Source: Lysobacterales bacterium (GTDB taxonomy: Bacteria; Pseudomonadota; Gammaproteobacteria; Xanthomonadales; Marinicellaceae). From it: a DNA stretch of 57,580 nucleotides. Each line of letters starts with the position of its first letter. The stretch's first letter is position 1. The stretch is from contig JAMOMK010000010.1 of assembly GCA_027067055.1 (NCBI GenBank), positions 1 through 57,580 on the forward strand, written 5' to 3'. The position numbers and the translations under genes are program-made. The notes under the pieces were generated by a model. The model did no database searches and was not told where the DNA came from. It saw only the letters and a program-made list of their open reading frames with translations. Positions 1,199 to 44,100 of this stretch are shown here, piece after piece.

Positions 1199-3880
1199 TT
1201 ATTCAAACCCATTTGAAAACATATTACAACTGTAACCTCCATCATTAATAGTCCAATTATAGTTGTTAACTAAAAGCCAACGTGCACCAACTGCTAATGG
1301 ATCACAATACTGAGTGGTTCCAACATTCAATGATAAGCCAGCATTAACATTTTGTCCTGCAAAATTAATGAGGATATCATCGTACAATGGTGTAGGTATC
1401 GATATACCATAAAAAGCACCATCTATATTAAGAAGACTACCAATATCCCATTTATCAATATCAATTGGAACATTTGTAGAGCGATCGTAAATATGAGACA
1501 TATTAGTGACAGAGGAGGTATCCCACTCACTTGTATCTATTGATAAATTTTGCGACCAATTTAACATATAGCTCATATTGGTCACTGATGAAGTATTCCA
1601 GTTACTAGTATTAATAGTTGTATTTTTACTACCTTCAAACATTGTAAACATACTCGTCACAGATGAGGTATTCCAACTACTAGTATCAATAGAAAAGTCT
1701 ACCACTCCTTTAAACATACCCGTCATGTCAGTAACTGATATTGTATCCCATTGGCTTGTATCTAAAGTTAAGTTAATACTTCGATCGAATATATGCTGCA
1801 TATCTGTGACTAGCGAAGTATTCCAACCATTAGTTGCAATAGATATGTTCTGGCTTCTTTCAAACATATGTTGCATAAATTTTAAAGAAGAAGTATCCCA
1901 GTTTGATGTATCAATTGTTGCACCAACAGTTTCTTCAAACATATATGCCATGTTCTCAACTAGTGAAGTATCCCAATCAGTTGTATTTAAGGATATACCA
2001 TCATAATTACCACTGAAAATTGAGTACATGGTAATGACAGATGAGGTATCCCAAACACTTGTGTCAATATTAATGTTTTTAGCATGCCTAAACATAAAAT
2101 TCATATCAGTTACAGATGAAGTATTCCAATCACTTGAATCAATTAATATATTATCACTGATGTAGAACATATCACTCATATTAGTAACAGATGAGGTATC
2201 CCAACCATTACTGGTTATTGATGTATTTATACTGTATTGAAATAAACTATTCATGTCTGTTACTAAAGATGTATCCCAGCCTGATGTATTAACAATTAAA
2301 TCTTTACAACCATAAAACATCTCACTCATATTTGTTAACGAAGAGGTATCCCAAAAGCTAACATCAAGACTAACATTCGACAATCCGCTAAAGATACGAC
2401 TCATATCTGTAACTGATGATGTATTCCACGAGCTAATTTTTAATTCTATATATTCCAAACCATTAAACATTCCATTCATGTCAGTTACTAAGGATGTATT
2501 CCAAGAATTAGCATTGAACCGTGTTATTCCAGAGCTTTCAAACATTTTACTCATATTTAATGCTGATGAAGTGTTCCAAGAGCTAATCTCAGGATTTGCA
2601 AAGCGTGCACTTTGAAACATATTCTGAAAACTAGTCACTTCAGAAAAATCAGGACTATCTGAAGCTGAAATAAGCATTTGATTAGCACCTCTAAATGCAT
2701 TTTTCATTGATTTCCACTGACTAGTCCCCCAGTTATTTAAGAGCAAAATTTTTACTCTATCTGAAGGACTTTCCCCAAAACTAATTGCAGGAAACCCCAT
2801 ACCAGTAGAATTATCATGCTTTATTGCAATGATATGAGTACCATTGGAATTATAGTTACATGTGTAATCTGATTGCACGGCTGATGCCTCTAACACACCA
2901 TCGTTGTCACAATCAATTGAATAGTTATATCCACTTATTGCAAAGTTTGTAGCAATAGTAAAAGAATCTCCCTGAATGGTTATAATTAAATCATCTGGAT
3001 TAGTATTTTTACAATACTTTCCTAAGTCACTAATGCTCCACCCTCTATTAATTAATATTGCTCTGGCATTTTCTGCTGTTGTACTGCAGTATTGAGAATA
3101 ACTAGCATTTAAAGTTACATTATTTATGAGGCTGTCTTGTGACAAGTTCAGCAAAAAAGAGTCATACTGAACTGTAGGTATTATCATTTTATCAAAAGCA
3201 CGATACATATTGCTTAATTGAGGCAAATGCCATTGACTAATATCAAAACTTACATTTTTAGACTCCGAAAAACTAAAACTCATGTCTTCTAAGGATTGTA
3301 GATTCCATATACTGGTATCAATTTCTATATTAATTGCTTTTCTAAATATATCTCTCATTGTAATTACAGATGAAACATCCCAATCACGTGAATTTATTGA
3401 TAAGTTTACTGCATAGGTAAACATTAAATTCATTGAATATACCTGAGAAAAATTTGGTGTGTCTAAAGCATTGAAAACAATGTTTCTTGCTTTAAAAAAC
3501 GCATAGTCCATATTTTTCCAATGGCTAGTACCCCACTGATCTAACGAAATAAATTTCCTAATATCTGTATTTGGTTTAAAATAAAGTGCAGGAAAGCCAT
3601 CACCCGTCACAGCATCGTGAATAATACGAATGGTGTATATACCTGCTTGCGCATAATCACAGGTATAAGCACCCGTTAAACCACTGGCCTCAACAATACC
3701 ATCATTATCACAATCTACTGCATAGTCATAAACCTCATCGGGATTAATGGGTAGAGTAAATTGATTAAGATTCGAGACACCATAGTTATCTGATTTTATG
3801 GTGATTATAAAATCATCGGGTGATGCATATGTGACTTGTGTGAAAGCAATTAATATTAATAGTGCCGACAGGTTTTTCAT
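1199..3880 (-). CDS. BspA-like (DUF285) repeat surface protein with C-terminal NGFE
   Basis: This is a predicted secreted or cell-surface protein of 893 residues. I start it at the ATG at 3880 because it begins a clear signal peptide (M-K-N-L-S-A-L-L-I-L-I-A-F...T-Y-A) and has GGATACC just upstream; the frame opens to 3934. The mature part has two modules. Each starts with an (S/N)-P-D-D-(F/L)-I-I-T-I segment and a D-C-D-N-D-G motif, and ends with a Y-C...W-(S/T)-I element. Between them lie about 20 repeats of the W-(D/N)-T-S-(S/L)-V-T-(D/N)-M-x-x-M-F type, the BspA/DUF285 leucine-rich-like repeat. BspA proteins bind host or matrix proteins in other bacteria; the ligand here is unknown. The last residues are M-F-S-N-G-F-E. 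It is a paralogue of the gene at 31198-33804. Confidence 0.85.
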   Translation of the reverse strand: MKNLSALLILIAFTQVTYASPDDFIITIKSDNYGVSNLNQFTLPINPDEVYDYAVDCDNDGIVEASGLTGAYTCDYAQAGIYTIRIIHDAVTGDGFPALYFKPNTDIRKFISLDQWGTSHWKNMDYAFFKARNIVFNALDTPNFSQVYSMNLMFTYAVNLSINSRDWDVSSVITMRDIFRKAINIEIDTSIWNLQSLEDMSFSFSESKNVSFDISQWHLPQLSNMYRAFDKMIIPTVQYDSFLLNLSQDSLINNVTLNASYSQYCSTTAENARAILINRGWSISDLGKYCKNTNPDDLIITIQGDSFTIATNFAISGYNYSIDCDNDGVLEASAVQSDYTCNYNSNGTHIIAIKHDNSTGMGFPAISFGESPSDRVKILLLNNWGTSQWKSMKNAFRGANQMLISASDSPDFSEVTSFQNMFQSARFANPEISSWNTSSALNMSKMFESSGITRFNANSWNTSLVTDMNGMFNGLEYIELKISSWNTSSVTDMSRIFSGLSNVSLDVSFWDTSSLTNMSEMFYGCKDLIVNTSGWDTSLVTDMNSLFQYSINTSITSNGWDTSSVTNMSDMFYISDNILIDSSDWNTSSVTDMNFMFRHAKNINIDTSVWDTSSVITMYSIFSGNYDGISLNTTDWDTSLVENMAYMFEETVGATIDTSNWDTSSLKFMQHMFERSQNISIATNGWNTSLVTDMQHIFDRSINLTLDTSQWDTISVTDMTGMFKGVVDFSIDTSSWNTSSVTSMFTMFEGSKNTTINTSNWNTSSVTNMSYMLNWSQNLSIDTSEWDTSSVTNMSHIYDRSTNVPIDIDKWDIGSLLNIDGAFYGISIPTPLYDDILINFAGQNVNAGLSLNVGTTQYCDPLAVGARWLLVNNYNWTINDGGYSCNMFSNGFE

Positions 3881-4446
3881 AAGGTATCCATATTCTAGTG
3901 ACGTGATTATAAAGGGTTTATTCTTATCTGACAAGATTTGAAGCGTAGTCTAAACCACGAATTCTCATAATTTTAATTTCATCTTTTACTGTTAAAATTA
4001 AATATTGTTTTCAATAGCGCAATAATCAACTACATGGCTATGTACTTAACTCCTGTTCCACCTTTTAATATGTGGTTAAGTATTTTAGGCTATTTAGGGT
4101 TGTTGGCTTTAGCCAACCTTTTCAAATATTGACTAAACTCAACAACCCATTTGAATTACTTAAAAGTAACACACTGATTTACAATAAATTTTATAACATT
4201 CTATGGCTCTTCACCGCTTATGTGAGTAAATAAAGGATACGAGTACAAACTTAATCTACTGTAATATAAGGTTTACCACAACTTTATAGCCAGAAGAGTA
4301 AATGAGTACAAGTATCCCCAAACATATTTTAGGTATAAACGCCCAAGTACTCATTGTTGATGTAAATCCATCTTATTAGATTGTTTTAATGATAACAGAT
4401 TTTCCTTAAATTCATCAGGTTTTTGTCTGAAAATTTCTGGTTTCAA
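3881..4446. other. Intergenic region without a supported gene
   Basis: This stretch separates two leftward genes. It contains a small inverted repeat (GTTGGC-TTTA-GCCAAC at 4102-4117, followed by CTTTTC on the plus strand) and the inverted 34-bp repeat at 4204-4238. A 32-codon ORF at 4034-4132 has no ribosome-binding site. I see no convincing gene. Confidence 0.5.
4204..4238 (-). repeat. 34-bp dispersed repeat, copy 2 (inverted)
   Basis: Read on the minus strand it runs ATCCTTTATTTACTCACATA followed by AGCGGTGAAGAGCCA, closely matching 94-127. The pair forms inverted repeats around the 4-kb BspA/GNAT block. Confidence 0.6.
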
Positions 4447-4974: not shown

Positions 4975-4991
4975 AAAATGTCCGATTTTAT

Positions 4992-9917: not shown

Positions 9918-12900
9918 ATGATTAGCGTACCTGTAAGAAACTTTGTGGCAATACTATTTTCCCTGTTAGCATCATCGGCTTGCGTAGCGAACCAACCATT
10001 AGAAACCGCCACAAATAGAGGTATTGTTCCAGTTTCGCACTTTGATATATCACCTCCACTAAAATTCATTGCACCCGCAACACCGCTGGCTAAAATGCAA
10101 AAAGGTGGCCTTATGATTGACCCCAATGGATTTGATAAAGGCAGTTATGGTGTTCAAGATGTTGATTCTATAGTTCAAGAGACAAAAAACATTAATACTA
10201 TTTCACCTGTTGCTAGTTTTGATGGCATTCCTAATGTTGCAGGGTTTTCACCACCAGATCCAGTGGGGGCTGTGGGTTTAAATCATTATGTCGTCATGAC
10301 CAATGTGCATTTTCAAATCTTCAACAAAGATGGTTCTACAGCCATGGCCGCAGCCGCAAACAACACCTTATGGACTGGATTTGGTGGAGCTTGTGAATCA
10401 CAAAATGCGGGTGACCCAATAGCATTGTATGATCAAATCAATGACCGTTGGTTACTTTCTCAATTTACTTCTAGTGCAGTAGGCGGTGAATTTTTCAACT
10501 GCGTTGCACTGTCTACATCTGGTGATCCAACAGGCACATACTACCGCTGGGCATTTACTACTGGCAGTAATTTTCCAGATTACCCTAAGTATGGTATTTG
10601 GTCAAATGCTTATTTAATCAGTACGCGTGAATTTGCAGGCAGCAGCTACGCAGGAGTTGGAGCTTATGCCATTCATAAAGATGACATGCTCAATGGTGTT
10701 GCTGCACCACGAATGATTTCATTTTTTGCAAATAGAACAAACCCTTTCACTGTTGGTGATGGTCTTTTACCTGCTGATATTGACGGCAACACCTTACCTC
10801 CTGCTGGCGCTCCTGCTTATTTTGTCGGAACTCAAGATAACGGTGGCCCATATAGTGCTCCTTCTGATGCTTTAAACTTATGGAAATTTGTTATTGATTT
10901 CGATACACCTGCCAACTCAAGTTTTACCTTAACTGATGTTTTAGCTATTACACCTTATGACACCATATTTACTTGTCCAGGCGGAGGTAGAAGTTGTTTA
11001 CCACAACCTGGCACCAGTAATTTGATTGATATTCAATCTTATAGACAACGCCCATTGCATCGTTTAGCTTATCGCAATTTTGGCACACATGAATCCTTAG
11101 TGACGAATCAATCTGTTGAGGCCGAAGTTGGTGTTGCTGGTATTCGTTGGTGGGAGATTCGCAACCCAAATACAACCCCAATAGTTTATCAAGAAGGCAC
11201 TTATGCCCCCGGTGTTACTGATGGAACCGACCGATGGATGGCCTCAGCTGCTATGGATGGTGAAGGTAACATCGCATTAGGTTATAGTGCAACAAGTACA
11301 ACAGTTTTTCCAAGCCTTTGGTATACAGGAAGGCTTGTTGGTGATCCTTTGGGACAAATGACTCAAGGTGAAGGATCGATTGTTGATGGCGGTGGTTCAC
11401 AAACAGGCAATCAACGTTGGGGCGATTATACATCTCTCAATATAGATCCAGTTGATGACTGTACCTTTTGGTATGTCAATGAATATTATATTACAACAAG
11501 TAGTTCTGGATGGCAAACTCGAATAGGGGCCTTCAAATTTGATGAATGTGGAACTCCTGGCTTTTATTTAACAACAACACCAAGCAGCCAGAGTATTTGT
11601 ACCGCTGATGATGCTGTATTTCAGGTAAATGCAGGTTCTATTGCTCTCTTCAATAGCCCTGTTACTTTAACTACCTCAGGACAACCTATTGGTTCTACAG
11701 TAAACTTTTCCTCTAACCCAGTAATGACATTACCCGGCTCAACCAACCTAACAATTAGTAATACCGCTGCTATAACTGCTGGAGTGTACCCTATTGACAT
11801 TAATGGAACAGCTACTGGAGCTGCTAATAAAACCAAAACTGTAACACTAACAGTATTTGATTCTCTTGCAGATCAAGCAATATTAACTCTGCCAGTAGAC
11901 AGTGCAGTTAACCAAATTTTCAGACCTGATTTTACCTGGACTGCTAATAATGCAGAGTCTTATTTATTTGAACTTGCTACAGATAATAGCTTCACGCAAA
12001 TTGTTGAATCTATTACAACAACAGCCAATGCCACCTCAATTTCAAATGATTTAAATTCCAATGCAACTTATTATTGGCGTGTTACTGCAACCAATGCCTG
12101 TGGAAGTGGTACGGTATCTGCTGTTTTCTCATTTTCAACACAAGCTGCACCAGGAGATTGTGCAAGCGGTTTTAATACAGTAAGTACATACGCAATTGAT
12201 TTTGAAAGCGGCAGTGCTGGCTGGAGCTCTCAAGGAACGGGTGATACATGGCAGCTATCAACAGTCAGACCTCACAATGGAAACAGCTCATTTCATGCAT
12301 TAGATCCTACTACAGTCAGTGATCAAGAGTTAATATCTCCAGAAATAACACTCCCTGCTGGTAACAGTAATTTAACTCTCCAATTTTGGAATTATCAATC
12401 AATGGAATCTCGCAATGCAACCCAATGTTGGGATGGCGGAACGTTAGAGATATCTACAGACAATGGTACTTCTTGGTCACATATTCCTAGTTCCAAAATG
12501 TTAACAGACCCTTATAAAGGAGCAGTTTCAGGATTAGGTGGTACTGATGGATGGTGTGGAGATCCGCAAGATTACATCAATTCTGTAGTCGATATTGACA
12601 ATTTTGCAGGTCAAATAGTAAGATTCAGGTTTAGGCTTGGCTCTGACACATCCCAAGGGCGCGAAGGTTGGTATATAGATGATATTAAGGTTCAAAGCTG
12701 TTCACAAGCAACACCTGAAATTACTGTTACAAAAACTGCAACCATTACAACTGACAATGGCTTCTCTGGAGAAGCTGACTTAAGTGATGTTATCACTTAT
12801 AGCGTTAGTGTGGAAAACACAGGTGGTGTCATATTAGACACCTTGGTGGTTACTGACTCAATGGTCGGCATCTTAACCTGCACACCAACAGCTTTAACCC

Positions 12901-13088
12901 CAGGTGAAATCGCAACATGCACAGATTACACCTATAGTGTTCAACAAACTGATATAGATGCAGGTGGCACACTTGATAATAGCGTCGATGCTATGATGAC
13001 TGATCCATCAAATACCTCAACCTATATGAGCAGTGCATCGACTCATACGATAATGAACTTTTCTTTGTTTAAGGATGGTTTTGAATAG
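9918..13088 (+). CDS. Large secreted multidomain protein with C-terminal DGFE
   Basis: This 1056-residue exported protein starts with a signal peptide ending near A-C-V-A (about residue 24). Residues about 85-540 hold a conserved region with D-P-V-G-A-V-G-L-N-H-Y and W-x-G-F-G-G-A-C-E, probably a beta-rich module. There follow a fibronectin-III-like segment (Y-L-F-E-L-A-T-D...Y-Y-W-R-V-T), a jelly-roll-like domain ending G-W-Y-I-D-D-I-K-V, and a DUF11-like repeat (T-V-T-K-T-A...V-T-D-S-M). It ends F-S-L-F-K-D-G-F-E. A paralogue with the same order of domains, lacking the DUF11-like repeat, lies at 27841-31065. No catalytic motif is visible; adhesion or matrix binding is a guess. Confidence 0.85.
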   Translation: MISVPVRNFVAILFSLLASSACVANQPLETATNRGIVPVSHFDISPPLKFIAPATPLAKMQKGGLMIDPNGFDKGSYGVQDVDSIVQETKNINTISPVASFDGIPNVAGFSPPDPVGAVGLNHYVVMTNVHFQIFNKDGSTAMAAAANNTLWTGFGGACESQNAGDPIALYDQINDRWLLSQFTSSAVGGEFFNCVALSTSGDPTGTYYRWAFTTGSNFPDYPKYGIWSNAYLISTREFAGSSYAGVGAYAIHKDDMLNGVAAPRMISFFANRTNPFTVGDGLLPADIDGNTLPPAGAPAYFVGTQDNGGPYSAPSDALNLWKFVIDFDTPANSSFTLTDVLAITPYDTIFTCPGGGRSCLPQPGTSNLIDIQSYRQRPLHRLAYRNFGTHESLVTNQSVEAEVGVAGIRWWEIRNPNTTPIVYQEGTYAPGVTDGTDRWMASAAMDGEGNIALGYSATSTTVFPSLWYTGRLVGDPLGQMTQGEGSIVDGGGSQTGNQRWGDYTSLNIDPVDDCTFWYVNEYYITTSSSGWQTRIGAFKFDECGTPGFYLTTTPSSQSICTADDAVFQVNAGSIALFNSPVTLTTSGQPIGSTVNFSSNPVMTLPGSTNLTISNTAAITAGVYPIDINGTATGAANKTKTVTLTVFDSLADQAILTLPVDSAVNQIFRPDFTWTANNAESYLFELATDNSFTQIVESITTTANATSISNDLNSNATYYWRVTATNACGSGTVSAVFSFSTQAAPGDCASGFNTVSTYAIDFESGSAGWSSQGTGDTWQLSTVRPHNGNSSFHALDPTTVSDQELISPEITLPAGNSNLTLQFWNYQSMESRNATQCWDGGTLEISTDNGTSWSHIPSSKMLTDPYKGAVSGLGGTDGWCGDPQDYINSVVDIDNFAGQIVRFRFRLGSDTSQGREGWYIDDIKVQSCSQATPEITVTKTATITTDNGFSGEADLSDVITYSVSVENTGGVILDTLVVTDSMVGILTCTPTALTPGEIATCTDYTYSVQQTDIDAGGTLDNSVDAMMTDPSNTSTYMSSASTHTIMNFSLFKDGFE

Positions 13089-19433: not shown

Positions 19434-21158
19434 ATGAAGATAATAAACTTTAAAAAACCCTTAATCATTATTGGGCTAATCATTAGCATAAACATTTATG
19501 CTAGCAATACAATTTGCGATGCAAGTGGTTGCGTTATTACCGTTGACTGGTCGATTGATGAAGAACCACAACATAACCTGCACACCTGTGACTATACACA
19601 AGGTGCTGCAACATTCTTTCCCGACACAACTGGACCTGGAGCTGGAAAATGTACATTTAGACGTGCTTTACGTGAAGCTGGAGCACGTTCTGATAATAAT
19701 GCCTGCCCAGGTTGTTCCCCTATCTTAATCCGTTTTACTGGACTTAATGGCACCGATGGCAATGCAGATGATGCCAACTACGATTCTGCAAGTGATCAAT
19801 GGGTATTGCCTATGAATAGCTCTGGAACGGCAAGTTTTTATGGTTTAGAGCCGCAAGCGTTAGACCTTGTTGGAAATATAACCATTCAAGGACCCGCTAT
19901 AGATGTCTTGAACGGTGAAATGCCAACCATAATAATTGATTCAGGAACAACTTTGGACATAGAACTTAAATTTGTTACCATAGAAAACTTGGGGTTTATG
20001 GGAGGACAAAGTATTCATTGGAAACAATCTGATGGTCTTTTTACCAATAACACTTGGGGATTAGCTCCTGATGGAGCATCTATTGAGTTTGATGACATGG
20101 TAGGAAATACTGATAATTTAGCAGGCAATCATGCTATCTTTACCACGCTTTTTGCCGATCGTATGACAGTAGATGGCAATGTCATGACAGGCGCAAGCAC
20201 TTTTGCGGTAGAAATTAATTCGGGCACCTCAGATGTAAAAATTATCAATAATTTAATCGGCACAAGAATCGATGGCAAAGTTCCATCAGTACCAACCAAC
20301 CTTAACTGTAGAACATTCACCAATATCAATCCAGTAAATCCACCAATTGACCCAGCAGAATGGTTTGGTGGAGCAGGAATTTCAGCCAGTGGGACAGGTT
20401 TACTGATAGAAAACAATGTTATTGCTGGATTACAAACTATTCACAGCACTTTTTCCACACCTCCAGAAGCACTAACCGTTTTTGGTCGGTTGCACACCGT
20501 GCAAAATAATATTATCGGTAAAGATTTAACAGGCAACGAAGTCGGCGTTTGCGGGCAAGGCATTAAACTATCAACTGCAACAGATTCACCAGAGGTGCAT
20601 AATGGACATATGATAATAGACAATGAAATTTACTTCCCAAAAAATGGCTTTGAGAATACCAAAGGAGCTATACTGTGGGGGGATACTCACGTCAATGGCT
20701 TTAAAGATGGGGGCAACACCATTCGCCGAAACCTTGTAAAGACAGGTTTAGAAAAATACATTGAATTTAGTGGCAACCTAATGAGTGTACAAAAAAGCTT
20801 TGAACCAGCGGTGATTTCATCAGTTAGTGGTGTGAATATAGCGGGTCATTCGCACCTAAGCAATATTTTTGGTGACCCAAGTCCGTGTCCAAACTGCATA
20901 ATAGATTTTTATCAAGATAATGGTAACACAGTAATGGATGCTTTAGAACATCTTGGCTCGACAGTTGCTGATGGCAATGGCGACTTTAACTTTACCTTAA
21001 GTGCGCCTTTAGCCAATGGTTTTGGCATTCGCACAACTAGCACCACAACAGCTGATAACATCATCCCAAGCACATGGTCTGGGACCACTTCAGAAATGTC
21101 ATCTGAAGTTTATGGCATTAGCATTTCAGAATTAATTTTTAACAATGGTTTTGAATAA
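19434..21158 (+). CDS. Secreted beta-helix-like protein (CSLREA-type N-terminus) with C-terminal NGFE
   Basis: This 574-residue protein has a signal peptide (hydrophobic I-I-I-G-L-I-I-S-I-N-I-Y-A, cleaved near residue 23). Early in the mature part G-K-C-T-F-R-R-A-L-R-E-A resembles the CSLREA motif seen at the head of secreted parallel beta-helix proteins. Recurrent short N-x-I/V rungs (N-N-V-I-A-G-L, N-N-I-I-G, N-N-L-I-G) fit a beta-helix. It ends I-S-E-L-I-F-N-N-G-F-E. The function is unknown; such proteins are often surface or matrix components. Expression is probably set by the direct-repeat array upstream. Confidence 0.8.
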   Translation: MKIINFKKPLIIIGLIISINIYASNTICDASGCVITVDWSIDEEPQHNLHTCDYTQGAATFFPDTTGPGAGKCTFRRALREAGARSDNNACPGCSPILIRFTGLNGTDGNADDANYDSASDQWVLPMNSSGTASFYGLEPQALDLVGNITIQGPAIDVLNGEMPTIIIDSGTTLDIELKFVTIENLGFMGGQSIHWKQSDGLFTNNTWGLAPDGASIEFDDMVGNTDNLAGNHAIFTTLFADRMTVDGNVMTGASTFAVEINSGTSDVKIINNLIGTRIDGKVPSVPTNLNCRTFTNINPVNPPIDPAEWFGGAGISASGTGLLIENNVIAGLQTIHSTFSTPPEALTVFGRLHTVQNNIIGKDLTGNEVGVCGQGIKLSTATDSPEVHNGHMIIDNEIYFPKNGFENTKGAILWGDTHVNGFKDGGNTIRRNLVKTGLEKYIEFSGNLMSVQKSFEPAVISSVSGVNIAGHSHLSNIFGDPSPCPNCIIDFYQDNGNTVMDALEHLGSTVADGNGDFNFTLSAPLANGFGIRTTSTTTADNIIPSTWSGTTSEMSSEVYGISISELIFNNGFE

Positions 21159-21412: not shown

Positions 21413-21670
21413 ATGAAAAAATATACAGTTATTTTCATGCTGATGATTCTTAATACATCATCAGCCCAATTTGTTATGAAAAAACACACGATTAACAGCG
21501 GTGGTGGCAATACCATGTCAGGTGGCAACTTTACATTAAAGTCTAGCATTGGGCAAGTCGATGCCAGCAACACCATGACAGGCGGTACATTTGGATTAAC
21601 TGGAGGCTTTTGGCAACCATCAGCACCGACCAACACAACAGAATTAATTTTTAGCAACGGCTTCGAATAG
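21413..21670 (+). CDS. Small secreted protein with C-terminal NGFE
   Basis: This 85-residue protein starts with a signal peptide (M-K-K-Y-T-V-I-F-M-L-M-I-L...S-S-A). It has two glycine-rich repeats of the N-T-M-(S/T)-G-G-x-F type and ends T-E-L-I-F-S-N-G-F-E. An AAAGGAAA ribosome-binding site precedes the ATG. The next gene begins nine bases after the stop, so the two are co-transcribed. Nearly a fifth of this tiny protein is the linker and tail motif, which makes it a useful test case for what the tail does. Confidence 0.8.
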   Translation: MKKYTVIFMLMILNTSSAQFVMKKHTINSGGGNTMSGGNFTLKSSIGQVDASNTMTGGTFGLTGGFWQPSAPTNTTELIFSNGFE

Positions 21671-27840: not shown

Positions 27841-30800
27841 CTAATTCTCAAAGTCATTGCTAAAAAGAATTCCTAAATCAATAGCACAGGATTGAATTTT
27901 TACTTCATCAATATCCCACCCATCAAAACCAACAGCTCCATCAGTTATCAATCGGAAGCGTAATTGAATGGTTTTTCCTGCATAATTGTCAAGATTAATT
28001 ATAGACTCCAAATATGTCTGCGGATTACCACACCACGCATATTGCCCAGGTAACAGGCTGTTAGACTGTAATGGACCATCGTATAAGTCAGTAAGTAAAC
28101 GATTATTTGGAACTGGAGCAAATGTCACTCCATCATCAATTGAAACCTCAACAAGCCCTCCGTCCCAACAAGCAGATTCACCATTAGCTTCTATATCTTG
28201 GGCATTATCAAGATGTAAAGTTAAAGTGTTGTGACCTGATGGCATTATGATTGCAGGTGAGGTTAACACCGTATCAGTCTGACGAGGAACATCGGTAATA
28301 TGCCAATGTTGTAGCCCTGTATTTGGGTTGCTTGTTGCTAACTGCCAAGTATTTGAGCCATCAATTGAAGTTGAACTCCAGCCTTGAGTACCATCTTCAA
28401 AATCATAAGCTTGTATTATTTGTGGAGTAATGCCTGTCTCACATTGCCCGGGCAAAGGTGCAGAGGTGAAACCTCGAACTGCTGAAACCACTCCACTTCC
28501 ACAAACATTTTGTGTCGTAACTCGCCAATAATATTGTGCTTCAGGCTGGAGTGACACTTTTGATAAATACGAGGAGGAACTTGTGGTATGTGACTCAACA
28601 ATATTAGCAAATGAAGCATCTGTTGCTAGTTCAAATAAATATGAAGAGCTATTGTTTGTCTCTTGCCATTGGAATGTTCTAGACAATGTTGAGACTAATG
28701 TTGCAACATTAATCGGCGATTGCAATTGTGCTGTTGAAGGAACACCATCAACAACATCCAGTTCTAATGCAGTAGCAAAAACCAAACTGGCATCAACACT
28801 ATCGGTAGCAATTAAGGTCATCAGATATTTTCCACCCGTGACACCGGCTGCCAAATTTGAGACAGTTAACTGACTGCTTTGTATAGGGTTTATTACAGGA
28901 TTAACCGAAAAATTACAATTAGCTCCGCTGGGGCAGCCTAAAATAGATAGATTGGTCGTGGCTGTAAAATTTCCTGTTAAACTCAAATCAAATGAGGTGC
29001 TGTCATCTACTGTGCAAACTGTTTGGGCGGGGTTGTTTGTTACTACCGAAACACAATCAGGAAAGTTAAATGAAGCAATACGCGTATTCCAACTATCATC
29101 ACCAGTAGTTTGAATGTATTCTGCCGACATCCAAAAACGACATTCATCAACAGGATCGACATTCATAGACGAATAATCTCCCCACCGAAAAGTCGAGGTT
29201 TGCACGCCCGTGCCTTCAATCAAGGATGCTTCATTACGCATTTGCCCTAAAGGTTCATTAGCACGACGAGAAGTAAACCGTGTACCTGGATTGATTCCAT
29301 TATCGGCATCAAGCACATTATAAATCATACCAATATCGCCTTGTCCGTTCATAGCTATGCTAGACATCCAACGGTGAGTATCATCTGGTGCATAGGTTCC
29401 TTGTTGATGCATATACCATTGCCCTGCTCCGCTTTTACGCATTTCAAACCATCGTGGTGCAGCGTGGTCACCTACAGCTAGAGCATCAACAGTCCATGAA
29501 CCTAACAAACTTTCGTAGCTACCAAAGTTACGGTAAACAAATCGTTGCATCGGCCACCAAGAACCACTATCGATTTTGACTTCTGTGCCTGCTTGCTCTA
29601 AGCACCCACGGGCAAACAAGCCACAAACTGTCCAGTTAAACTCTGCTATTTCTGGTGGTTGAAAACTTTTAATTAGATTAAATGTCGATTGTGAAGGAAA
29701 ATCCCAATCGACTTTAAACTCATATAAATCAATCGAATCATTGTCAGGAGCGGGGTCAGAAAAATAGTCATCACCACCATCAATCATGGTGTAAAACAAA
29801 CCACCACTACCTTGCCTTGGTGTTAAAGAGCCATCACTATCTGCCGGCAATAAAAAATTAGCATAGCCTTGAAAAAACTGTGCTTGTCTTGGAATATTTC
29901 CTGCTAATAAAGACTCTCTATCAATTGCATAAACATCATAACTATTGGGAGCACCAGAATTAGTTCCCATAAAATAGGCATTGTTTCTATCATCTGCCCA
30001 CACACCTAGCTTGTAATAATCGGGTGTTCTCTGCGTGGCTAATTCATAAAGATAATACGTCCCCAAAGGGTCTGAACTTGTAGAAACTGCAAAACACACA
30101 CTTTGTGCACCGCTTATTGCAAACTGACTTAAGACATATCGATCGGCTTGTTGGTCATATAAAACAATAGCATCACCATTGTTATTATCCTCGCACGCAC
30201 CACCAAAACCTTGCCATAATGAATTGGTATTGGATGGACCTGCCAACAAATTGCCTGTTTTATCGTAAACAGCAAAAGCCAAATTAACCATTTGAATATA
30301 ATGATTTTTACCAACAGTCCCTGCCACATCTGGAGGAGAGCTGTTACTCAATTTATTCAACCCTTCAAAACTAATGGTCGCATTCGGTGTTGCACCTGCT
30401 ATTGCCTCTGCTTGCTTAGATTTACTTGCTAAGACATCATCTTTATCATTAACATTGCTTGTCCCATACCTTCTTCCATCTTTTGCAAAAGCAATATTTT
30501 CATCTTCATCACTCTCATCAACAACTTGAGCCGCAGGTTTTACAATTGGCAAACTCACTAGTGGTTGGCTAATTACAGGTCCTTTTATTGGCAAGACAAA
30601 TGGAGATTTAGTGATTGTTGATTGATTATCTTGCTTACTTGCTGTTAATGTGACAGCTTGAAATGCCAACAAGTTTGAATAATAACTATCCATTTTTGAA
30701 GAACCACTAAAATAAAATGGATTAGCTTGCAATGACTTGACTGACTTTATTCTGATTAGAGGTGAATAAACCTGTTTATTAACACGAATTTCAAGAGAGA

Positions 30801-31065
30801 ACTCATCAAATTTTTTACTAATTTTTTGAATCTTTAAGTGGTTTATTTTGCCAATTTCTAGTTGGAATTTACCTTCTTTGAAAATAGTGTCTGTTATTAA
30901 TTCACTGTAAAGACTCTCATTATTCACACTCAACAAACGGATACCCACATCAAACTTTCCATTTAATGGTTGGTTTTGGCTGTCATTTAACGAGTTTGAA
31001 TAAATGATTTTTGCCGTGACAGTGTGAACAAACAAAAATGTAATGAGAGTAAATATAAACTTCAT
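27841..31065 (-). CDS. Large secreted multidomain protein with near-terminal NDFE
   Basis: This exported protein has 1074 residues from the ATG at 31065, which begins a good signal peptide (M-K-F-I-F-T-L-I-T-F-L-F-V-H-T-V-T-A); the frame opens ten codons earlier. The N-terminal domain (about 20-130) has the same layout as that of the 21680-22729 protein. Residues about 230-690 match the conserved region of the 9918-13088 protein (D-V-A-G-T-V-G-K-N-H-Y, W-Q-G-F-G-G-A-C-E-D). Then come a fibronectin-like segment and a jelly-roll-like domain ending G-W-D-I-D-E-V-K-I. It ends I-L-F-S-N-D-F-E-N, a variant tail with one extra residue. Function unknown. Confidence 0.83.
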   Translation of the reverse strand: MKFIFTLITFLFVHTVTAKIIYSNSLNDSQNQPLNGKFDVGIRLLSVNNESLYSELITDTIFKEGKFQLEIGKINHLKIQKISKKFDEFSLEIRVNKQVYSPLIRIKSVKSLQANPFYFSGSSKMDSYYSNLLAFQAVTLTASKQDNQSTITKSPFVLPIKGPVISQPLVSLPIVKPAAQVVDESDEDENIAFAKDGRRYGTSNVNDKDDVLASKSKQAEAIAGATPNATISFEGLNKLSNSSPPDVAGTVGKNHYIQMVNLAFAVYDKTGNLLAGPSNTNSLWQGFGGACEDNNNGDAIVLYDQQADRYVLSQFAISGAQSVCFAVSTSSDPLGTYYLYELATQRTPDYYKLGVWADDRNNAYFMGTNSGAPNSYDVYAIDRESLLAGNIPRQAQFFQGYANFLLPADSDGSLTPRQGSGGLFYTMIDGGDDYFSDPAPDNDSIDLYEFKVDWDFPSQSTFNLIKSFQPPEIAEFNWTVCGLFARGCLEQAGTEVKIDSGSWWPMQRFVYRNFGSYESLLGSWTVDALAVGDHAAPRWFEMRKSGAGQWYMHQQGTYAPDDTHRWMSSIAMNGQGDIGMIYNVLDADNGINPGTRFTSRRANEPLGQMRNEASLIEGTGVQTSTFRWGDYSSMNVDPVDECRFWMSAEYIQTTGDDSWNTRIASFNFPDCVSVVTNNPAQTVCTVDDSTSFDLSLTGNFTATTNLSILGCPSGANCNFSVNPVINPIQSSQLTVSNLAAGVTGGKYLMTLIATDSVDASLVFATALELDVVDGVPSTAQLQSPINVATLVSTLSRTFQWQETNNSSSYLFELATDASFANIVESHTTSSSSYLSKVSLQPEAQYYWRVTTQNVCGSGVVSAVRGFTSAPLPGQCETGITPQIIQAYDFEDGTQGWSSTSIDGSNTWQLATSNPNTGLQHWHITDVPRQTDTVLTSPAIIMPSGHNTLTLHLDNAQDIEANGESACWDGGLVEVSIDDGVTFAPVPNNRLLTDLYDGPLQSNSLLPGQYAWCGNPQTYLESIINLDNYAGKTIQLRFRLITDGAVGFDGWDIDEVKIQSCAIDLGILFSNDFEN

Positions 31066-31141
31066 TGAGAAAACAATAACCAAAATCAATTGCATTTATA
31101 CTAACAGAGCAATGCTCCCTAGGCAACTTTATATAAAAACA

Positions 31142-31197: not shown

Positions 31198-33804
31198 TTA
31201 CCAACTAACGAGTGTTGGCTGTTTACTATCAACTACTTGCCATTGCCCTTGAAACCATAGATTGTTTTGCATGCTTTCATCAATATAATCTTTCCTAATT
31301 TGCAATTGCCCTTGCATCTGCCGTAAATAAACTCGTATCACCACCTGGTAAGTAACATTTAACCCCTTAGCAATTAATTCTGGTTCTTGAGATAGTTGCA
31401 GTGAAGATACTTGTGAGAAATCATAGGTAAATTTTTTCTCTATAGCATTAAAAAAAATAAAGCTTTCAAACTCATCTTTAAAAATCAACTCCACGACGGG
31501 AGGAATAATATCAACATTGAAGAAACCTAAATCAACATCAGTTCCACCACCCACACCTGTATTTCCTCCATCATTAATCGTCAGAGTAATTAAATCAGCA
31601 TTGTCGCCCATATTACCTAATGCCCCAGTGTATTGAATATTGCCTGGCACACTTAAATAAGCATTAATATCATCTATACTGCCTTGTAATGTAACCGAAT
31701 TTGTTGGGCTGTTACTAATTGTTAATTGTGTAGAGGTTGCAGGAGTAAGAGTGGCTATATTGGCTGAGTGTGTTAATAGAGTTAGGGTCACATCACCCAA
31801 TCCTGCATCTAAATCCGTCAACGTAATCGTGGACAAATTCAAAGTGCTGGCTAAATCTTGAATTACTGTAACATCAGTTGGTAGTCCACTGATAGTTGGA
31901 TCTAGGTTTGTACATGTTGCATCAGCTCCGCCATCGGTAATACTCCAGTTATGGTCATGAACCAAGATATAACGAGCAAGTTTTGCAAAAGTGGAGCAGT
32001 ATTTGCTATTTCCTCCATGAAAAGAAACATTATCCTTAACACTTTGACCTGAAAAATTTAGCAGTATAGTCTCGTAATCAACTGTTGCTAAGGTAACACC
32101 TGAAAACATATTTATCATATTAGTTACTTGTGTAACATCCCAACTACTGGTATCAGGATTCGCCACTAAAGTATTACTAAACATTCCCCCCATATTTGTT
32201 ACCATTGAAGTATCCCAGTTACTAGTATCAGGATTGGCACTGTTTGTGCTTAAAAATAGAGCATCCATTCGAGCAACCTTTGATGTGTCCCATAAACTGA
32301 CATCGGGATTAGCAACATCTGTATCTCTGAACATCCACCGCATCGTTTCTACTTTAGAGGTATCCCATAAACGAGTATCAGGATTAGCTACTGTTGCTAA
32401 AAAAAACATGTTTGACATATCTGTAACATTTGAGGTGTCCCAGTATTTAGTTTCAGGATTTGCAAGTGAAGCTCTCTGAAACATTGACAACATTGAGCCA
32501 ACACCAGAAAAATCTGGTATATCTTTAGCATTGTAAACCATGTTGTTAGCTCGTATGAATGCATAGTTTGTTAATAACCAGTGTCCAGTACCCCATTGAT
32601 CCAATGAAATTATTTTTGCCTGATCATGATTAATAGTCGCTCCAGCAAATGGAAAAGCGGAAAATCCATTATGAAATCCTGGATGGTTTTTAATTCGAAT
32701 TGTATAAACTCCAGGTCCTCCAAGAGCACTATAATCACACACAAAACCAGCGCCAAGAACTGTCCCCTCAATCACACCATCATTATTACAGTCAACTAAA
32801 TAAGAGTATTGGTATGTCGGGTCAATTTTGATTAAATACTGCGTATCAGGAGAGACTCCAGCAATTGTTGTATCAACAGTAAAAACATAATCGTGTTCAA
32901 GAGCCGTATCCGCACAAAGCAAGCCATCATCTATTGTCCAACTGCCACTGGATAATAGATAAGCACGGGCATTTTGGGCAGCTTGAGAGCAATACTGACT
33001 ATTACCACCATGAAAGACCACATTAGCTTGTGTTGTTTTATGAGCAAATTCAACTAGTATTCTATCGTAATCAACAATAGGCAATGTCACGGCACTAAAC
33101 ATTCCAGTCATATCCATCACCTGAGCAATATCCCAACTACTCACATCTGGTCTAGCCAAATAAGCATGACGAAACATAAAACTCATGTCATCAACCAAGT
33201 GTGTATTCCAAAAGCTAGTATCGGGAGTAGCAACTTCTGCCTCGTTAAAAAGGCTTTTCATACTAATGACCATTGATGTGTTCCAAGATTTGGTATCAGG
33301 ATTAGCAAGTAAAGCTCTTCTGAACATACTTTCCATTGTTGTTACTTGAGAAAAATCAGGAATATCAGTGGCGGAAACAACCATATTTTCTGCGCCATAA
33401 AATGCCCTTTGCATATTGGTCCATTTACCCGTTCCCCATTGTAAAAGTTCAATTACTTTCAACCTATCAAAAGTATTGTTGAAATTAATACTAGGAAAAC
33501 CATCACCTGTTCCTGAATTGTCTTTTATGCGTATGGTATAGGTTCCTGCACCTGTATTTAATCCAGTGGCAGAATAATCACAATCAAAATTCCCCATCAC
33601 CCCAGTTGCTTCATCCACACCGTCATTATTACAATCAACATTATAATTATAAGTCAGCGCACCTTTGGTTGGTATGCGGAACATTTCAGCAATGGTGAAT
33701 CCTGCATTGTCTGTTTTGACTCGAATGACAAAATCATCTGATGATGCAGCATTGGTTTTAGAAATCACCATTAAGAACAACAAGCAATAAATTACATTTT
33801 TCAT
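31198..33804 (-). CDS. BspA-like (DUF285) repeat surface protein with internal DEFE motif
   Basis: This 868-residue exported protein has a signal peptide (M-K-N-V-I-Y-C-L-L-F-L-M-V...N-A). Like the 1199-3880 protein it has two modules, each opening with a D-C-N-N-D-G motif and closing with an S-(Q/K)-Y-C-S...W-(S/T)-I-(D/T)-D-G element around DUF285 repeats (W-D-T-S-x-V-x-x-M-x-x-M-F). A beta-rich domain (about 645-780) follows. The tail motif V-E-L-I-F-K-D-E-F-E occurs near residue 790 but is followed by about 75 more residues. It is divergent from the membrane-bound regulator gene, with a 243-bp gap. Confidence 0.83.
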   Translation of the reverse strand: MKNVIYCLLFLMVISKTNAASSDDFVIRVKTDNAGFTIAEMFRIPTKGALTYNYNVDCNNDGVDEATGVMGNFDCDYSATGLNTGAGTYTIRIKDNSGTGDGFPSINFNNTFDRLKVIELLQWGTGKWTNMQRAFYGAENMVVSATDIPDFSQVTTMESMFRRALLANPDTKSWNTSMVISMKSLFNEAEVATPDTSFWNTHLVDDMSFMFRHAYLARPDVSSWDIAQVMDMTGMFSAVTLPIVDYDRILVEFAHKTTQANVVFHGGNSQYCSQAAQNARAYLLSSGSWTIDDGLLCADTALEHDYVFTVDTTIAGVSPDTQYLIKIDPTYQYSYLVDCNNDGVIEGTVLGAGFVCDYSALGGPGVYTIRIKNHPGFHNGFSAFPFAGATINHDQAKIISLDQWGTGHWLLTNYAFIRANNMVYNAKDIPDFSGVGSMLSMFQRASLANPETKYWDTSNVTDMSNMFFLATVANPDTRLWDTSKVETMRWMFRDTDVANPDVSLWDTSKVARMDALFLSTNSANPDTSNWDTSMVTNMGGMFSNTLVANPDTSSWDVTQVTNMINMFSGVTLATVDYETILLNFSGQSVKDNVSFHGGNSKYCSTFAKLARYILVHDHNWSITDGGADATCTNLDPTISGLPTDVTVIQDLASTLNLSTITLTDLDAGLGDVTLTLLTHSANIATLTPATSTQLTISNSPTNSVTLQGSIDDINAYLSVPGNIQYTGALGNMGDNADLITLTINDGGNTGVGGGTDVDLGFFNVDIIPPVVELIFKDEFESFIFFNAIEKKFTYDFSQVSSLQLSQEPELIAKGLNVTYQVVIRVYLRQMQGQLQIRKDYIDESMQNNLWFQGQWQVVDSKQPTLVSW

Positions 33805-37517: not shown

Positions 37518-39152
37518 ATGAATACACAAATGAAACAAAAAGCAACTAAATACAAACAATCGATATTGGTATTATTGTTTGTATTGTTAGCCATGCCGTC
37601 ACAAGCCGTAGTTATTACCAAAAGTTTTACAGGATTATGGCAACAACCAGATCATGAAAGTCAAGGTTTTGACTTTCAAGTAATTGATCAAAATGGTCTA
37701 CCACAAGCACTAACTTATTGGTATACGTATGATACTGAAGGCAATCCAATGTGGTTGCTCGGTGTTGGTGATATTACGGAAGAGACAGTAAGCATGGATT
37801 TAATGACTGTTACTGGAGTTACTAATTTACAAAACCCTGACCCTGCAACACGCACCGAAGTTATTTTGGCAACAGCTTTCTTTACATTTGAAGATTGCAA
37901 TAATGGCTCTGTAGAAATAGTACCAACTGCGATAAATAATCCAGGAACCTCAAACTCCATCAGCGGTACTGGTGGAATTGTTCGCATTCAGCGTCTAACA
38001 TCGGTACAAGGAGAAACTTGTAGTGGTGGAATTTCAGATAACACCACAGCACAAGCCGTGGATGAAGAATATCAACAATTTATGGGCAATACAGGTGTTT
38101 ATCCAAATGGTAATGCACGCTTTGAATTTGAACAAGACAGAGAAAATACAGAATTTGAAGTTGAAGTTGAGAATGTCCCCGTTGGTAGTTATAACCTTAG
38201 TGTTGAAGGAATAATTAGAGGTCAAATTCAAGTTGTAAACACTAATAGTGGCACAGAGGGGAAAATTGAATTTGAGTCGCCAGTCGTCGCACATAAATTA
38301 CTGTTAATTTTTGATCCCCGTGATAAAGTTATAGAAGTGCTTGAAGGTAATACGGTTCTTTTTAGCAGTGATTTTATTCCAACATCAGGTGGAACAAACC
38401 CTCCCCAAAGCAGTGGAGCACCACCTTTTGCAAACAACCTTGAAACTAAAGTATTTTTCAATAACACGGGTGTTATTGCATCAGCTAGAGGCGAGGTGGA
38501 GCTTGAACAAGAATTAAATGAAGTGGAATTTGAAGTGGAAATTGAAAATGTACCTCTAGGTAGCTATAGCCTCTTCATTGACGGTGTAGAAAAAGGAATA
38601 ATCAGGGTAATCAATGATGATGGCGGTCAAGAAGGCGAGCTAGAGTTTCGTTTTCCAAGTGAAGTAGGTAAGCCACTACTAAACTTTGACCCAAGAGGGA
38701 AATTGATAGAAGTTCGTCAAAATGGCAACACTATTTTAGAAGTTGTGTTTTCTGTAGGTGCTGGAGGCGGAACTACGCCACCGCCGCCATCATCAGGGGG
38801 CAGTCCAGGAGCTGGTACTCCACCATTTGCTAATGATATAGAAACCAAAAGGTTCTTTAATAACACTGGAGTTATCGCATCGGCTAGAGGAGAAGTGGAG
38901 CTTGAGCAAGAGCCAAATGAAGTTGAGTTTGAAGTGGAGATTGAAAATGTACCGCTTGGTAACTACACACTTTTTGTTGGCGGCATTGAAAAAGGAATTA
39001 TTACAGTATACAATGACGATGATGGTACAGAAGGTGAGATCGAATTCAGTTTCCCACAAGAATTCAACCATCCACTACTTGATTTTGATCCAAGGGGGCA
39101 ACTAATAGAAGTTCGCCAAAATGGCAACACCATTTTAGAGGTGCTTTTCTAA
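37518..39152 (+). CDS. Secreted protein with triplicated beta-rich domain
   Basis: This 544-residue exported protein has a signal peptide ending near residue 31 (M-P-S-Q-A/V-V). The first domain (about 33-155) begins F-T-G-L-W-Q-Q-P and contains L-T-Y-W-Y-T-Y-D-T-E-G-N-P-M-W-L, the same type found in the 53988-57446 region. Three copies of a domain of about 100 residues follow (coding about 38074-38370, 38447-38755, 38846-39150), with core E-V-E-(V/I)-E-N-V-P-(V/L)-G-x-Y and F-D-P-R-(D/G)-K/Q. Copies 2 and 3 are most alike; P/G/S-rich linkers precede copies 2 and 3. It lacks the F-E tail. Confidence 0.82.
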   Translation: MNTQMKQKATKYKQSILVLLFVLLAMPSQAVVITKSFTGLWQQPDHESQGFDFQVIDQNGLPQALTYWYTYDTEGNPMWLLGVGDITEETVSMDLMTVTGVTNLQNPDPATRTEVILATAFFTFEDCNNGSVEIVPTAINNPGTSNSISGTGGIVRIQRLTSVQGETCSGGISDNTTAQAVDEEYQQFMGNTGVYPNGNARFEFEQDRENTEFEVEVENVPVGSYNLSVEGIIRGQIQVVNTNSGTEGKIEFESPVVAHKLLLIFDPRDKVIEVLEGNTVLFSSDFIPTSGGTNPPQSSGAPPFANNLETKVFFNNTGVIASARGEVELEQELNEVEFEVEIENVPLGSYSLFIDGVEKGIIRVINDDGGQEGELEFRFPSEVGKPLLNFDPRGKLIEVRQNGNTILEVVFSVGAGGGTTPPPPSSGGSPGAGTPPFANDIETKRFFNNTGVIASARGEVELEQEPNEVEFEVEIENVPLGNYTLFVGGIEKGIITVYNDDDGTEGEIEFSFPQEFNHPLLDFDPRGQLIEVRQNGNTILEVLF

Positions 39153-40387: not shown

Positions 40388-40397
40388 ATTAATTCTC

Positions 40398-41820: not shown

Positions 41821-41829
41821 TGTTATAAT
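41821..41829 (+). promoter_or_regulatory. Extended -10 promoter
   Basis: TGTTATAAT is an extended -10 element 27 bases before the ATG of the 173-residue membrane protein, which has CGGAG upstream. Confidence 0.45.
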
Positions 41830-41856
41830 TATTGCTAAGAAAACACGGAGAATGAC

Positions 41857-42378: not shown

Positions 42379-42444
42379 GTTTAAATGGTGCTATTTAAAA
42401 ATCAACCTATTTAATATTGAAACAAATACTTCAAAAAATTCGTC

Positions 42445-42466
42445 ATTCCTGCGAAGGCAGGAATGA
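42445..42466 (+). repeat. GCGAAGGC-type palindromic intergenic repeat, copy 1
   Basis: CATTCCTGC-GAAG-GCAGGAATG is a perfect 9-bp stem, preceded by TCGT. This hairpin class is dispersed in many proteobacterial genomes. A second copy in the opposite orientation lies at 45555-45574. Confidence 0.7.
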
Positions 42467-42588
42467 CCGCAGTGGAATTGAAATGCACAAGGCAGTGCTT
42501 TGTGCCTACATTTATTTTGTTTGAGGTTACAAATAAAAAATGTTAACTGGCTAACGTTTTAAAACATTTTTGCTGTTAAACTATCAGC

Positions 42589-44100
42589 ATGAAATTTTTA
42601 TTGCTTTTGCTTTTTTGTTTGCCTTTATCTATTTTGGCTACTGATTATTATGTTGCCGTTGATGGTGATGATGCAGCCTCTGGTGTGGCTATTAGCTCAC
42701 CTTGGAGGACTATTAGTTTTGCTACTTCTCAAGTAATTGCCGGTGATACGGTATTTATTAAAGCTGGTGATTATGGTGGTGAAAATATTGTTTTAACAGT
42801 CAATGGTAGTGCTGGCAATCCGATTACCTTTGAAGGGTATCAAACCATCCCTGGAGATAATCCACAGAATAATTATGTGGTTGGAACACTACTTGACCCT
42901 TCGATTATGCCAACGCTTAATGGTGGTGATAGAACCACTGGTATTGCTATTGAGCTAACCGACAGAAGTTATATTGTGTTTAAAAATTTTCAAATTCATG
43001 ATTACAGTGCAGGTATTTACGCACATGCTGCCACACATTCTGTAGTTGATAACATTACCGCCATTACTTTGGGTGATGTCAACAATAATTACTCAGGTGT
43101 CGGCATTGTTTTTAGCTCTTCAACAGACAGCAATACCATAAAGAATTGCCTTGTCTACAATGCGGCAGCTGAAGGGATTTCTGTTGCTGGCAATAACAAT
43201 TTAATTGATAATTGCAAGGTTTATTGTGATGACAATCAAACCGTGCATAGTTCTACCGATTATTATATTGTGCTTGCTGGCAACAACAACCACGTCAAAA
43301 ACAGTTATGCGCAGCGTATTGGCAACCTTGAACATGGCGGGCATGGCATTGGCTTTAAGGACTTTGCACAAGATAGCTTAATTGAGGACAGCACCAGCGT
43401 CAATATGGCTGGTAGCTTTTATTTTCGCTACAGCCCTGTGTTTAATAATACCATTCGCAATTGCCACGCTAAAGACAGTGATGAAAGCTTGCTAATGCGT
43501 GATGGTGCACACCATAATACTTTTGAGAATTGCACGGTGGATAATGCCTATTATGCCATTGTGTTTTATGATTCCATGGGCGAAGATGATGGCGCGCCTA
43601 ATACAGCTGAGGCGAATGTAATTAAAAACAGCTTGATAACCAACACACGTCAAGCCGTTATTGCTTTTCACCAATACAATCGACCATCGGATGTGGTTAA
43701 TAACCGCATTGAAAACATTACTATTGATAATGCTTTGTATTTGTTTCATTCTGGCAGAGTTAATATCAACAATTCCATGACCAATAGTATCGTCACCAAT
43801 GTGGCTAATTATTCTATTGGCAGTGTCGCTTTGGATTTTAGTTTCGATTACAGTAATTTCTGGACAAATGGTTTTACAATACCTGTTGGAAGTGGCAATT
43901 TAGCGGTTGACCCATTATTTACTCAAGCTGGTAGTCACTACATTTCGGTAAACTCACCCATGAAGAATGCAGGCAATCCAAGTTACATTGCTGATGCCGA
44001 TGATGTGGATATAAACGGTGATAAGCGAATCATCAACAGCATTATTGATATGGGTGTTGATGAGTATAATGAGTTTATTATGTCGGATAGTTTTGAATAA
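42589..44100 (+). CDS. Secreted right-handed beta-helix protein with C-terminal DSFE
   Basis: This 503-residue protein has a short signal peptide (M-K-F-L-L-L-L-L-F-C-L-P-L-S-I-L-A). It opens with D-Y-Y-V-A-V-D-G-D-D...S-P-W-R-T-I, the usual start of secreted pectate-lyase-like or NosD-like beta-helix proteins. Repeating N-T-I-K-N-C, N-T-F-E-N-C and N-V-I-K-N-S rungs follow. No polysaccharide-lyase catalytic residues can be assigned with confidence. It ends N-E-F-I-M-S-D-S-F-E, a tail variant. It is not obviously linked to ccmA, which begins 71 bp later. Confidence 0.82.
   Translation: MKFLLLLLFCLPLSILATDYYVAVDGDDAASGVAISSPWRTISFATSQVIAGDTVFIKAGDYGGENIVLTVNGSAGNPITFEGYQTIPGDNPQNNYVVGTLLDPSIMPTLNGGDRTTGIAIELTDRSYIVFKNFQIHDYSAGIYAHAATHSVVDNITAITLGDVNNNYSGVGIVFSSSTDSNTIKNCLVYNAAAEGISVAGNNNLIDNCKVYCDDNQTVHSSTDYYIVLAGNNNHVKNSYAQRIGNLEHGGHGIGFKDFAQDSLIEDSTSVNMAGSFYFRYSPVFNNTIRNCHAKDSDESLLMRDGAHHNTFENCTVDNAYYAIVFYDSMGEDDGAPNTAEANVIKNSLITNTRQAVIAFHQYNRPSDVVNNRIENITIDNALYLFHSGRVNINNSMTNSIVTNVANYSIGSVALDFSFDYSNFWTNGFTIPVGSGNLAVDPLFTQAGSHYISVNSPMKNAGNPSYIADADDVDINGDKRIINSIIDMGVDEYNEFIMSDSFE

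Follow-up and report, generated by a model that had tools for sequence, protein, structure and literature searches.

C-terminal tags common to many unrelated Sec-exported proteins of one genome are found in the GlyGly-CTERM/rhombosortase, MYXO-CTERM, and PEP-CTERM systems, where the tag is made up of a transmembrane helix and basic residues and undergoes intramembrane cleavage. GlyGly-CTERM proteins can be cargo of the type II secretion system (T2SS). The type IX C-terminal domain (CTD) is likewise C-terminal and is carried by Sec-exported proteins of varied architecture, whose passage across the outer membrane it directs; it is a folded domain of about 80 residues, from Bacteroidota. Type I secretion relies on a short uncleaved C-terminal signal, and its cargo normally lacks an N-terminal signal peptide. 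T2SS substrates enter the periplasm by Sec or Tat, and the cargo is folded (PMC12369372). Two sources state that T2SS cargo has no known universal or common linear secretion signal (PMC12369372; PMC7949064), and the PDZ domain of GspC (OutC, EpsC) is described in the first of them as needed for some cargo only, in Vibrio and Dickeya (PMC12369372). In this study, we analyzed a stretch of 57,580 nucleotides from a Lysobacterales bacterium (Xanthomonadales; Marinicellaceae; assembly GCA_027067055.1, contig JAMOMK010000010.1, positions 1 to 57,580, hereafter the window), in which several exported proteins end in a tag of about nine soluble residues built around F-x-[ND]-x-F-E. The tag is new and real, it occurs genome-wide and order-wide, and no description of it was found in the open-licence literature searched. 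Within the order its presence is strongly linked to one of two T2SSs. We propose, with a probability of roughly 0.5, that it works as a short linear tag for sorting, recognized in the periplasm either by that system or jointly with it.

The genome to which the window belongs (G000, 3.42 Mb; the window is its contig C10) contains 54 sites of F-x-[ND]-x-F-E followed by a stop, against 7 for the reversed pattern. The form with Gly before F-E (the Gly form) occurs at 31 sites, against none reversed. The pattern closes with TRR, a codon that covers TGG as well, and one of the 54 sites and one of the 31 are TGG. Given both comparisons, the tag count is beyond chance. The stretches around all 54 sites were read. 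The motif ends 45 distinct open reading frames (ORFs) of at least 40 residues, and the other sites end no such ORF. Stricter gene calling keeps 39 of the 45. Of the six ORFs dropped, that at window position 21413 and L038 have signal peptides; L033, of 76 residues, shows no signal; L052 and L072 seem truncated at contig ends; and L056 has 26 residues when counted from its first start. Over the 39 ORFs, position -9 is D/E in 25, -8 is L/V/I/F in 23, -7 is I/V/L/M in 38, -5 is S/K/T in 25, -4 is N in 24 and D in 15, and -3 is G in 25 and S in 9. Some exported proteins of this genome have one to six residues past F-E (for example FEN, FEDS, FENL, FEQ, and FEEGCPTL). The consensus of the last nine or so residues is [DE]-phi-[IVLM]-F-x-[ND]-[GS]-F-E, sometimes with a few residues more.

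A sequence-only reading of the window had reported six such tails and a seventh, internal copy. All were confirmed in the sequence, as follows:

1199..1222, minus strand: MFSNGFE-stop, end of a DUF285/PARCEL repeat protein (ORF 1199-3934)
13065..13088, plus strand: LFKDGFE-stop, end of a 1056-residue exported protein with InhA-like MAM and DUF7507 domains (9918-13088)
21135..21158, plus strand: IFNNGFE-stop, end of a 574-residue exported protein (19434-21158)
21647..21670, plus strand: IFSNGFE-stop, end of an 85-residue exported protein (21413-21670) with several paralogues among the stretches read
27841..27867, minus strand: near-terminal LFSNDFEN-stop, in a 1084-residue exported protein with a MAM-like domain (27841-31095)
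44077..44100, plus strand: variant IMSDSFE-stop, end of a beta-helix protein (42589-44100), with Met instead of Phe at the first motif position
31465..31488, minus strand: internal copy LIFKDEFE, residues 773-780 of the 868 of a DUF285 protein (31198-33804)

An N-terminal hydrophobic signal-like stretch is present in all seven proteins. The view that the tail is strictly C-terminal held for many proteins and had to be relaxed for those in which up to six residues follow F-E. The claim of different architectures likewise stood in part: DUF285/PARCEL, InhA-like MAM with DUF7507, beta-helix, and small 'GGFW' proteins are all represented, but 9918-13088 and 27841-31095 have a MAM-like domain in common and fall into one BLAST cluster. 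No tail model was among the Pfam/NCBIfam matches listed for the seven proteins; one MAM match of 27841-31095 extends a few residues into the tail. Other window proteins that look exported have no tag (for example 21680-22729, 24101-25003, 37518-39152, and 54681-57488).

The sequence-only reading had inferred a recognition tag on exported proteins, which would be contradicted if the tail were equally frequent on cytoplasmic proteins or confined to one domain family. Neither was found, and the inference is thereby supported. After omission of the spurious-looking L058, 36 of the 38 exact-tag ORFs were scored as exported by a crude signal rule, and both ORFs missed show signal sequences by eye; the corresponding value for untagged ORFs of the same stretches was 123 of 342, a set that contains truly exported proteins and some spurious ORFs. 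In a second genome (G380), 13 of 15 tagged ORFs with a closed 5' end were exported by a crude rule, and five of 20 were not judged. Tagged proteins carry Sec or Tat signal peptides, as T2SS substrates do, and DUF1501 proteins with a Tat signal bear the tag in several lineages. For clustering, we combined the 38 exact-tag ORFs with window 21413 and nine near-tagged proteins chosen among signal-bearing ones. With the last 15 residues removed, these 48 proteins formed 31 BLASTP clusters (E 1e-3), which rules out ordinary homology as the cause of the tag. Their Pfam matches include beta-helix, Kelch, FG-GAP, reprolysin-like peptidase, subtilase, endonuclease I, CotH, lamin tail, and cupredoxin, among others, and CpaA-like peptidases also occur among the tagged bodies. 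No Pfam family was found in more than four of the 48, and no NCBIfam family in more than two among the matches listed. The predicted structure of a tagged DUF1501 protein consists of a folded body (mean predicted local distance difference test score, pLDDT, 79.8) and a tail (residues 416-423) below 50; residues 1-40 are also low.

Described C-terminal signals were set apart from the tag by sequence features alone. The last 15-25 residues contain no hydrophobic helix or basic tail of the GlyGly-CTERM, PEP-CTERM, MYXO-CTERM, or LPXTG kind, in agreement with what the sequence-only reading had noted for LPXTG, PEP-CTERM, and GlyGly-CTERM. No such sorting-signal model was matched by the seven window proteins (NCBIfam, E ≤ 1) or by the 48 tagged proteins, among the 25 of 36 NCBIfam families listed. 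A type IX CTD was rejected, as the part held in common is only about nine residues, modelled at low confidence and probably disordered in one model; the tag is a short tail and belongs to Gammaproteobacteria. Type I substrates were excluded by the Sec/Tat signals. The tag does not resemble a classic PDZ C-terminal ligand with a hydrophobic last residue and a free end, since it ends in Glu and zero to five residues may follow. It also lacks the aromatic end of outer-membrane beta-barrel proteins, and the bodies that have family matches are beta-helix, propeller, peptidase, and similar.

Any Gly-form site was found in 31 of 369 genomes of the class; only the window genome (31) and G367 of the same order (4) have more than two, and G016 has two. 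In the order, 76 of 151 genomes have a Gly-form site, with a maximum of 56 per genome. Tag presence across these 151 is patchy, and some families are nearly all zero.

A search for a gene family whose presence follows that of the tag had been proposed along with the tag itself, and within the order such a family was found: a second, canonical Gsp-type T2SS (gspC with PDZ, gspD, gspE, and gspF), which we label class A. Among 58 chosen genomes searched for GspD, two copies were over the cut-off in 24 of 29 tagged genomes; the second is fragmented in two more, and G477, G487, and G461 show one. A midpoint-rooted tree of 40 GspD proteins has two deep clades, class A and class B. Every tagged genome read has class B, as do most of the untagged ones; class A is represented by ten tagged genomes, two members of family f190, and the nearly tagless G428. 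The GspD of a Xanthomonas-like second system (G274x) is a long-branched sister of class A; that of G439y is also long-branched, and its placement is unsure. In the window genome, genes for GspC, GspD, GspE, and GspF make up the class A locus (L155), together with an alpha/beta hydrolase gene (L155:11068-11988, minus strand) that lies between gspC and gspD. This GspC has T2SSC and PDZ domains; pseudopilins of the system were not located. GspC homologues, similar through the PDZ region, were found beside class A gspD at 13 of 13 loci of a first set and 19 of 20 of a second; the single exception among the 33 is G503, where the piece fetched was too short. Pfam PDZ models match all nine class A GspC proteins tested, in six of them above the gathering score. 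Upstream of class B gspD, two ORFs were examined as possible GspC genes, and neither had a Pfam match. Only the one from the window genome resembles GspC (E 1e-5), in a region other than the PDZ part; the other is a weak candidate (E 0.7).

Genomes were counted as class A-positive when they had a GspD match of at least 290 bits, fragments included; with the shorter fragment of G482 (62% identity), this gave 83 of the 151 genomes of the order. At least two Gly-form tags are present in 58 of the 83 class A-positive genomes vs. four of the 68 negative ones (Fisher 6e-17, a value overstated because the genomes are related). Family f2 has one class A genome among its 24, G455; it holds 21 tags, and no other member exceeds one. 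In family f3, the four class A-positive genomes of 24 have 4, 2, 9, and 11 tags, and the other 20 hold none, except one with a single tag. G384, of the same family as the window genome (4.7 Mb, 2 contigs, 100% complete), lacks both GspD and a terminal Gly tag; it may be viewed as a natural loss case.

Family f190 is class A-positive throughout (24 of 24), yet 21 of the 24 genomes have no more than a single Gly tag. In 400 kb sampled from one member (G422), 289 genes were called and 124 flagged as exported; inspection of the tails of those flagged revealed five proteins with F-x-D-R-F-[EQ], or a sequence close to it, at or next to the end. F-x-D-R-F-E was then counted across the order: 10-81 sites are present in 15 of the 24 f190 genomes and at most four in the other nine, and each of the 127 genomes outside the family has at most five. 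With tagged genomes defined by the Gly form (at least two) or the Arg form (at least six), 73 of 83 class A-positive and four of 68 class A-negative genomes are tagged, a count that is not blind because the Arg form was added after f190 had been inspected. In other words, 73 of the 77 tagged genomes of the order have a class A GspD. When class A labels were shuffled within families, 73 was not reached in any of 20,000 trials (mean 67.1, maximum 72).

This link is the basis for the proposed sorting by class A. Tagged proteins would pass the inner membrane through Sec or Tat and would fold in the periplasm, with the last nine or so residues hanging free; the tag would then be recognized by the class A T2SS, or jointly with it, and this system would carry the proteins across the outer membrane. 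Tat-exported cargo, folded bodies, and a free tail point to periplasmic reading after folding, as the T2SS works, and Tat-signal DUF1501 cargo fits a T2SS and not type I secretion or autotransport. The PDZ domain of GspC or the adjacent GspD N-domains may tentatively be named as the tag receptor, which is the most speculative step. OutC and EpsC likewise belong to Gsp-type T2SSs with PDZ on GspC, but the PDZ-dependent determinants given for them are folded Fn3 or Ig domains (PMC12369372; PMC7949064), whereas the tag is a short linear tail. The GspC proteins of f190 and of G481/G446 have in common a shorter loop before the second PDZ strand; this is a lead only, since G481 has ten Gly tags. A fuller version of the proposal, in which the Gsp-type T2SS of Xanthomonadales-like bacteria reads phi-F-x-[ND]-[G/S/R]-F-E on folded Sec/Tat cargo via the GspC PDZ, with tag and receptor changing together (Gly to Arg in the clade with the shorter loop), is unlikely to hold in all its parts.

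The same co-occurrence would be expected if the tag acted after or beside secretion and were read by a surface-anchoring, modifying, or C-terminal processing factor co-inherited with class A, as rhombosortase acts on GlyGly-CTERM cargo of the T2SS. This is the main rival explanation, possible but on balance doubtful. GlyGly-CTERM, a known C-terminal tag of T2SS cargo, is reported to go with surface association, and the small tagged proteins, like the bodies of beta-helix, Kelch, and DUF285 type, have the appearance of surface proteins. The tail itself, on the other hand, has no transmembrane helix, Cys, or basic stretch usable as an anchor, and no dedicated gene was noticed, although none was searched for systematically.

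Several results, besides the late inclusion of the Arg form, weigh against reading by the class A system. The link is strong within the order, but it is correlational, and the strong link is confined to the order. Ten of the 83 class A genomes count as untagged. One of them (G377) has five long-form sites (described below) and, when no stop is required, 11 sites of F-x-[ND]-G-F-E against 1; two others (G385 and G483) are apparently the same as G533 and G534, whose DUF1501 tails IVSLNGFES, IVSRNGFE, and VIAKNGFE escape the patterns. Conversely, tags are present in four class A-negative genomes of the order (G487, 27; G423, 18; G412, 6; G461, 4), which are drafts with completeness of 96, 77, 90, and 98%, respectively. 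Outside the order, as judged from record titles, Thiolapillus, Chromatiaceae, and two Sedimenticola genomes (G518, G519, G520, and G524) have 2, 2, 5, and 2 Gly tags, and class A GspD was not found in them (best matches 174-185 bits); G016, of the same class and another order, has two tags without class A GspD. A class A-type GspD with one tag only was found in G137, G256, and G525. Twenty genomes were reached through loci. By coordinates and counts, eight of them match members of the order sample (G521-523, G528, and G531-534 correspond to G428, G382, G373, G398, G472, G390, G385, and G483), and 12 are independent. Among the 12, class A accompanies at least two tags in two (G526 and G527) and one tag in one (G525), tags occur without class A in four, and five have neither; class A GspD was found in two of the six further tagged genomes reached in this way. 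It follows that class A-type systems do not require the tag, nor the tag class A.

The role of the PDZ domain meets objections of its own. Class A genomes with zero to five tags (G385, G429, G443, G446, and G453) have PDZ as well, so its presence does not predict tags by itself, and the idea that class A genomes are poor in tags for want of a PDZ region was tested and rejected. In G455, where the motif without the stop rule occurs at 68 sites against 0, F-E lies zero to five residues before the stop in 25 of 30 loci read, which argues against strict free-carboxylate PDZ binding; in the other five, 17, 34, 127, and 445 residues follow, and one is cut. The locus with 445 residues (L200) has PLFADGFEPG far from the C-terminus, possibly just past the signal peptide. 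The statement, in both sources, that T2SS substrates have no common linear signal (PMC12369372; PMC7949064) also runs counter to the proposal.

The five tagged genomes outside the order without class A GspD, and G461, G487, G412, and G423 within it, are what would be expected if the tag served exported proteins generally, in folding, in stability, or in recognition by a chaperone or protease, with no tie to a secretion system and linked to class A through a lifestyle with many exoproteins. More than one tag in f2 and f3 occurs only alongside class A, and some GspD is over the cut-off in 20 of the 22 genomes without tags or class A (58-genome search), so that possession of a T2SS alone is not enough. 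We consider this explanation improbable.

Variants of the tail were followed on DUF1501 proteins, for which a contig scan with two queries gave 115 relatives, of which 80 loci were kept. The tag or a variant is at the end in 15 of the 19 loci that are gammaproteobacterial by record title (ELFSNGFE, ELFGDGFE, IFASGFD, IFSDEFESL, IIFRDGAE, and IVSRNGFE, for example). No tag is present at L105, L118, L130, and L141; the genomes of the last three nonetheless hold 7, 30, and 14 tags. The three tails without the first Phe mentioned above (L075, L076, and L077, respectively) are missed by the DNA patterns. Most loci of other phyla, such as Chloroflexi and Cyanobacteria, have no tail. Three Acidobacteriota loci (L079, L091, and L112) end in a longer form, FESGDxSxW, with IFSDGFETGDLSRWT or IFESGFESGDMSDWSTATP as the tail. 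No class A GspD was found in their genomes, and the long form is a possible related tag in another phylum.

These Acidobacteriota ends are compatible with a tail that has no function today and was spread by gene fusion, a remnant of a carbohydrate-binding jelly-roll (its first strand) or of FESGDxSxW; the tail presumably resembles the NG-FE starts of domains like carbohydrate-binding modules. As a parent form, FESGDxSxW was tested and does not explain the short tag in the order, since only 18 of 151 genomes have any site of it. Conservation extends to positions that the search left free, on 31 clusters (-7 in 38 of 39, -9 in 25, and G/S at -3 in 34). The coordinated Gly to Arg shift in one clade and the parallel absence in class A-negative lineages suggest selection and count against a remnant, which we regard as very improbable.

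Two groups of proteins deserve separate mention. DUF285/PARCEL repeats, a domain named from Mycoplasma proteins, occur in two proteins of this apparently marine gammaproteobacterium (1199-3934 and 31198-33804). In the second (minus strand), 88 in-frame residues of unassigned kind follow LIFKDEFE; the protein may be a fusion or an extension beyond an older protein end. The 'GGFW' family comprises exported proteins of 83-111 residues, seven of which lie in the stretches read, themselves selected by the position of tags. The tag is present in all seven, with two residues beyond it in one, and the family has a weak match to a model of a candidate phyla radiation (CPR) pilus protein (PamT). The members are:

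window 21413-21670
L034:501-770
L046:6939-7229
L051:1-252
L051:10836-11090
L062:9686-10021
L071:501-800

If reading of the tag by the class A system is confirmed, a nine-residue tag on dozens of unrelated proteins would be tied, within the order, to one of two coexisting T2SSs. Cargo choice by a T2SS would become directly testable by grafting and deletion of the tag. The tag would also provide a sequence rule for secretome prediction and, possibly, a short export tag for engineering.

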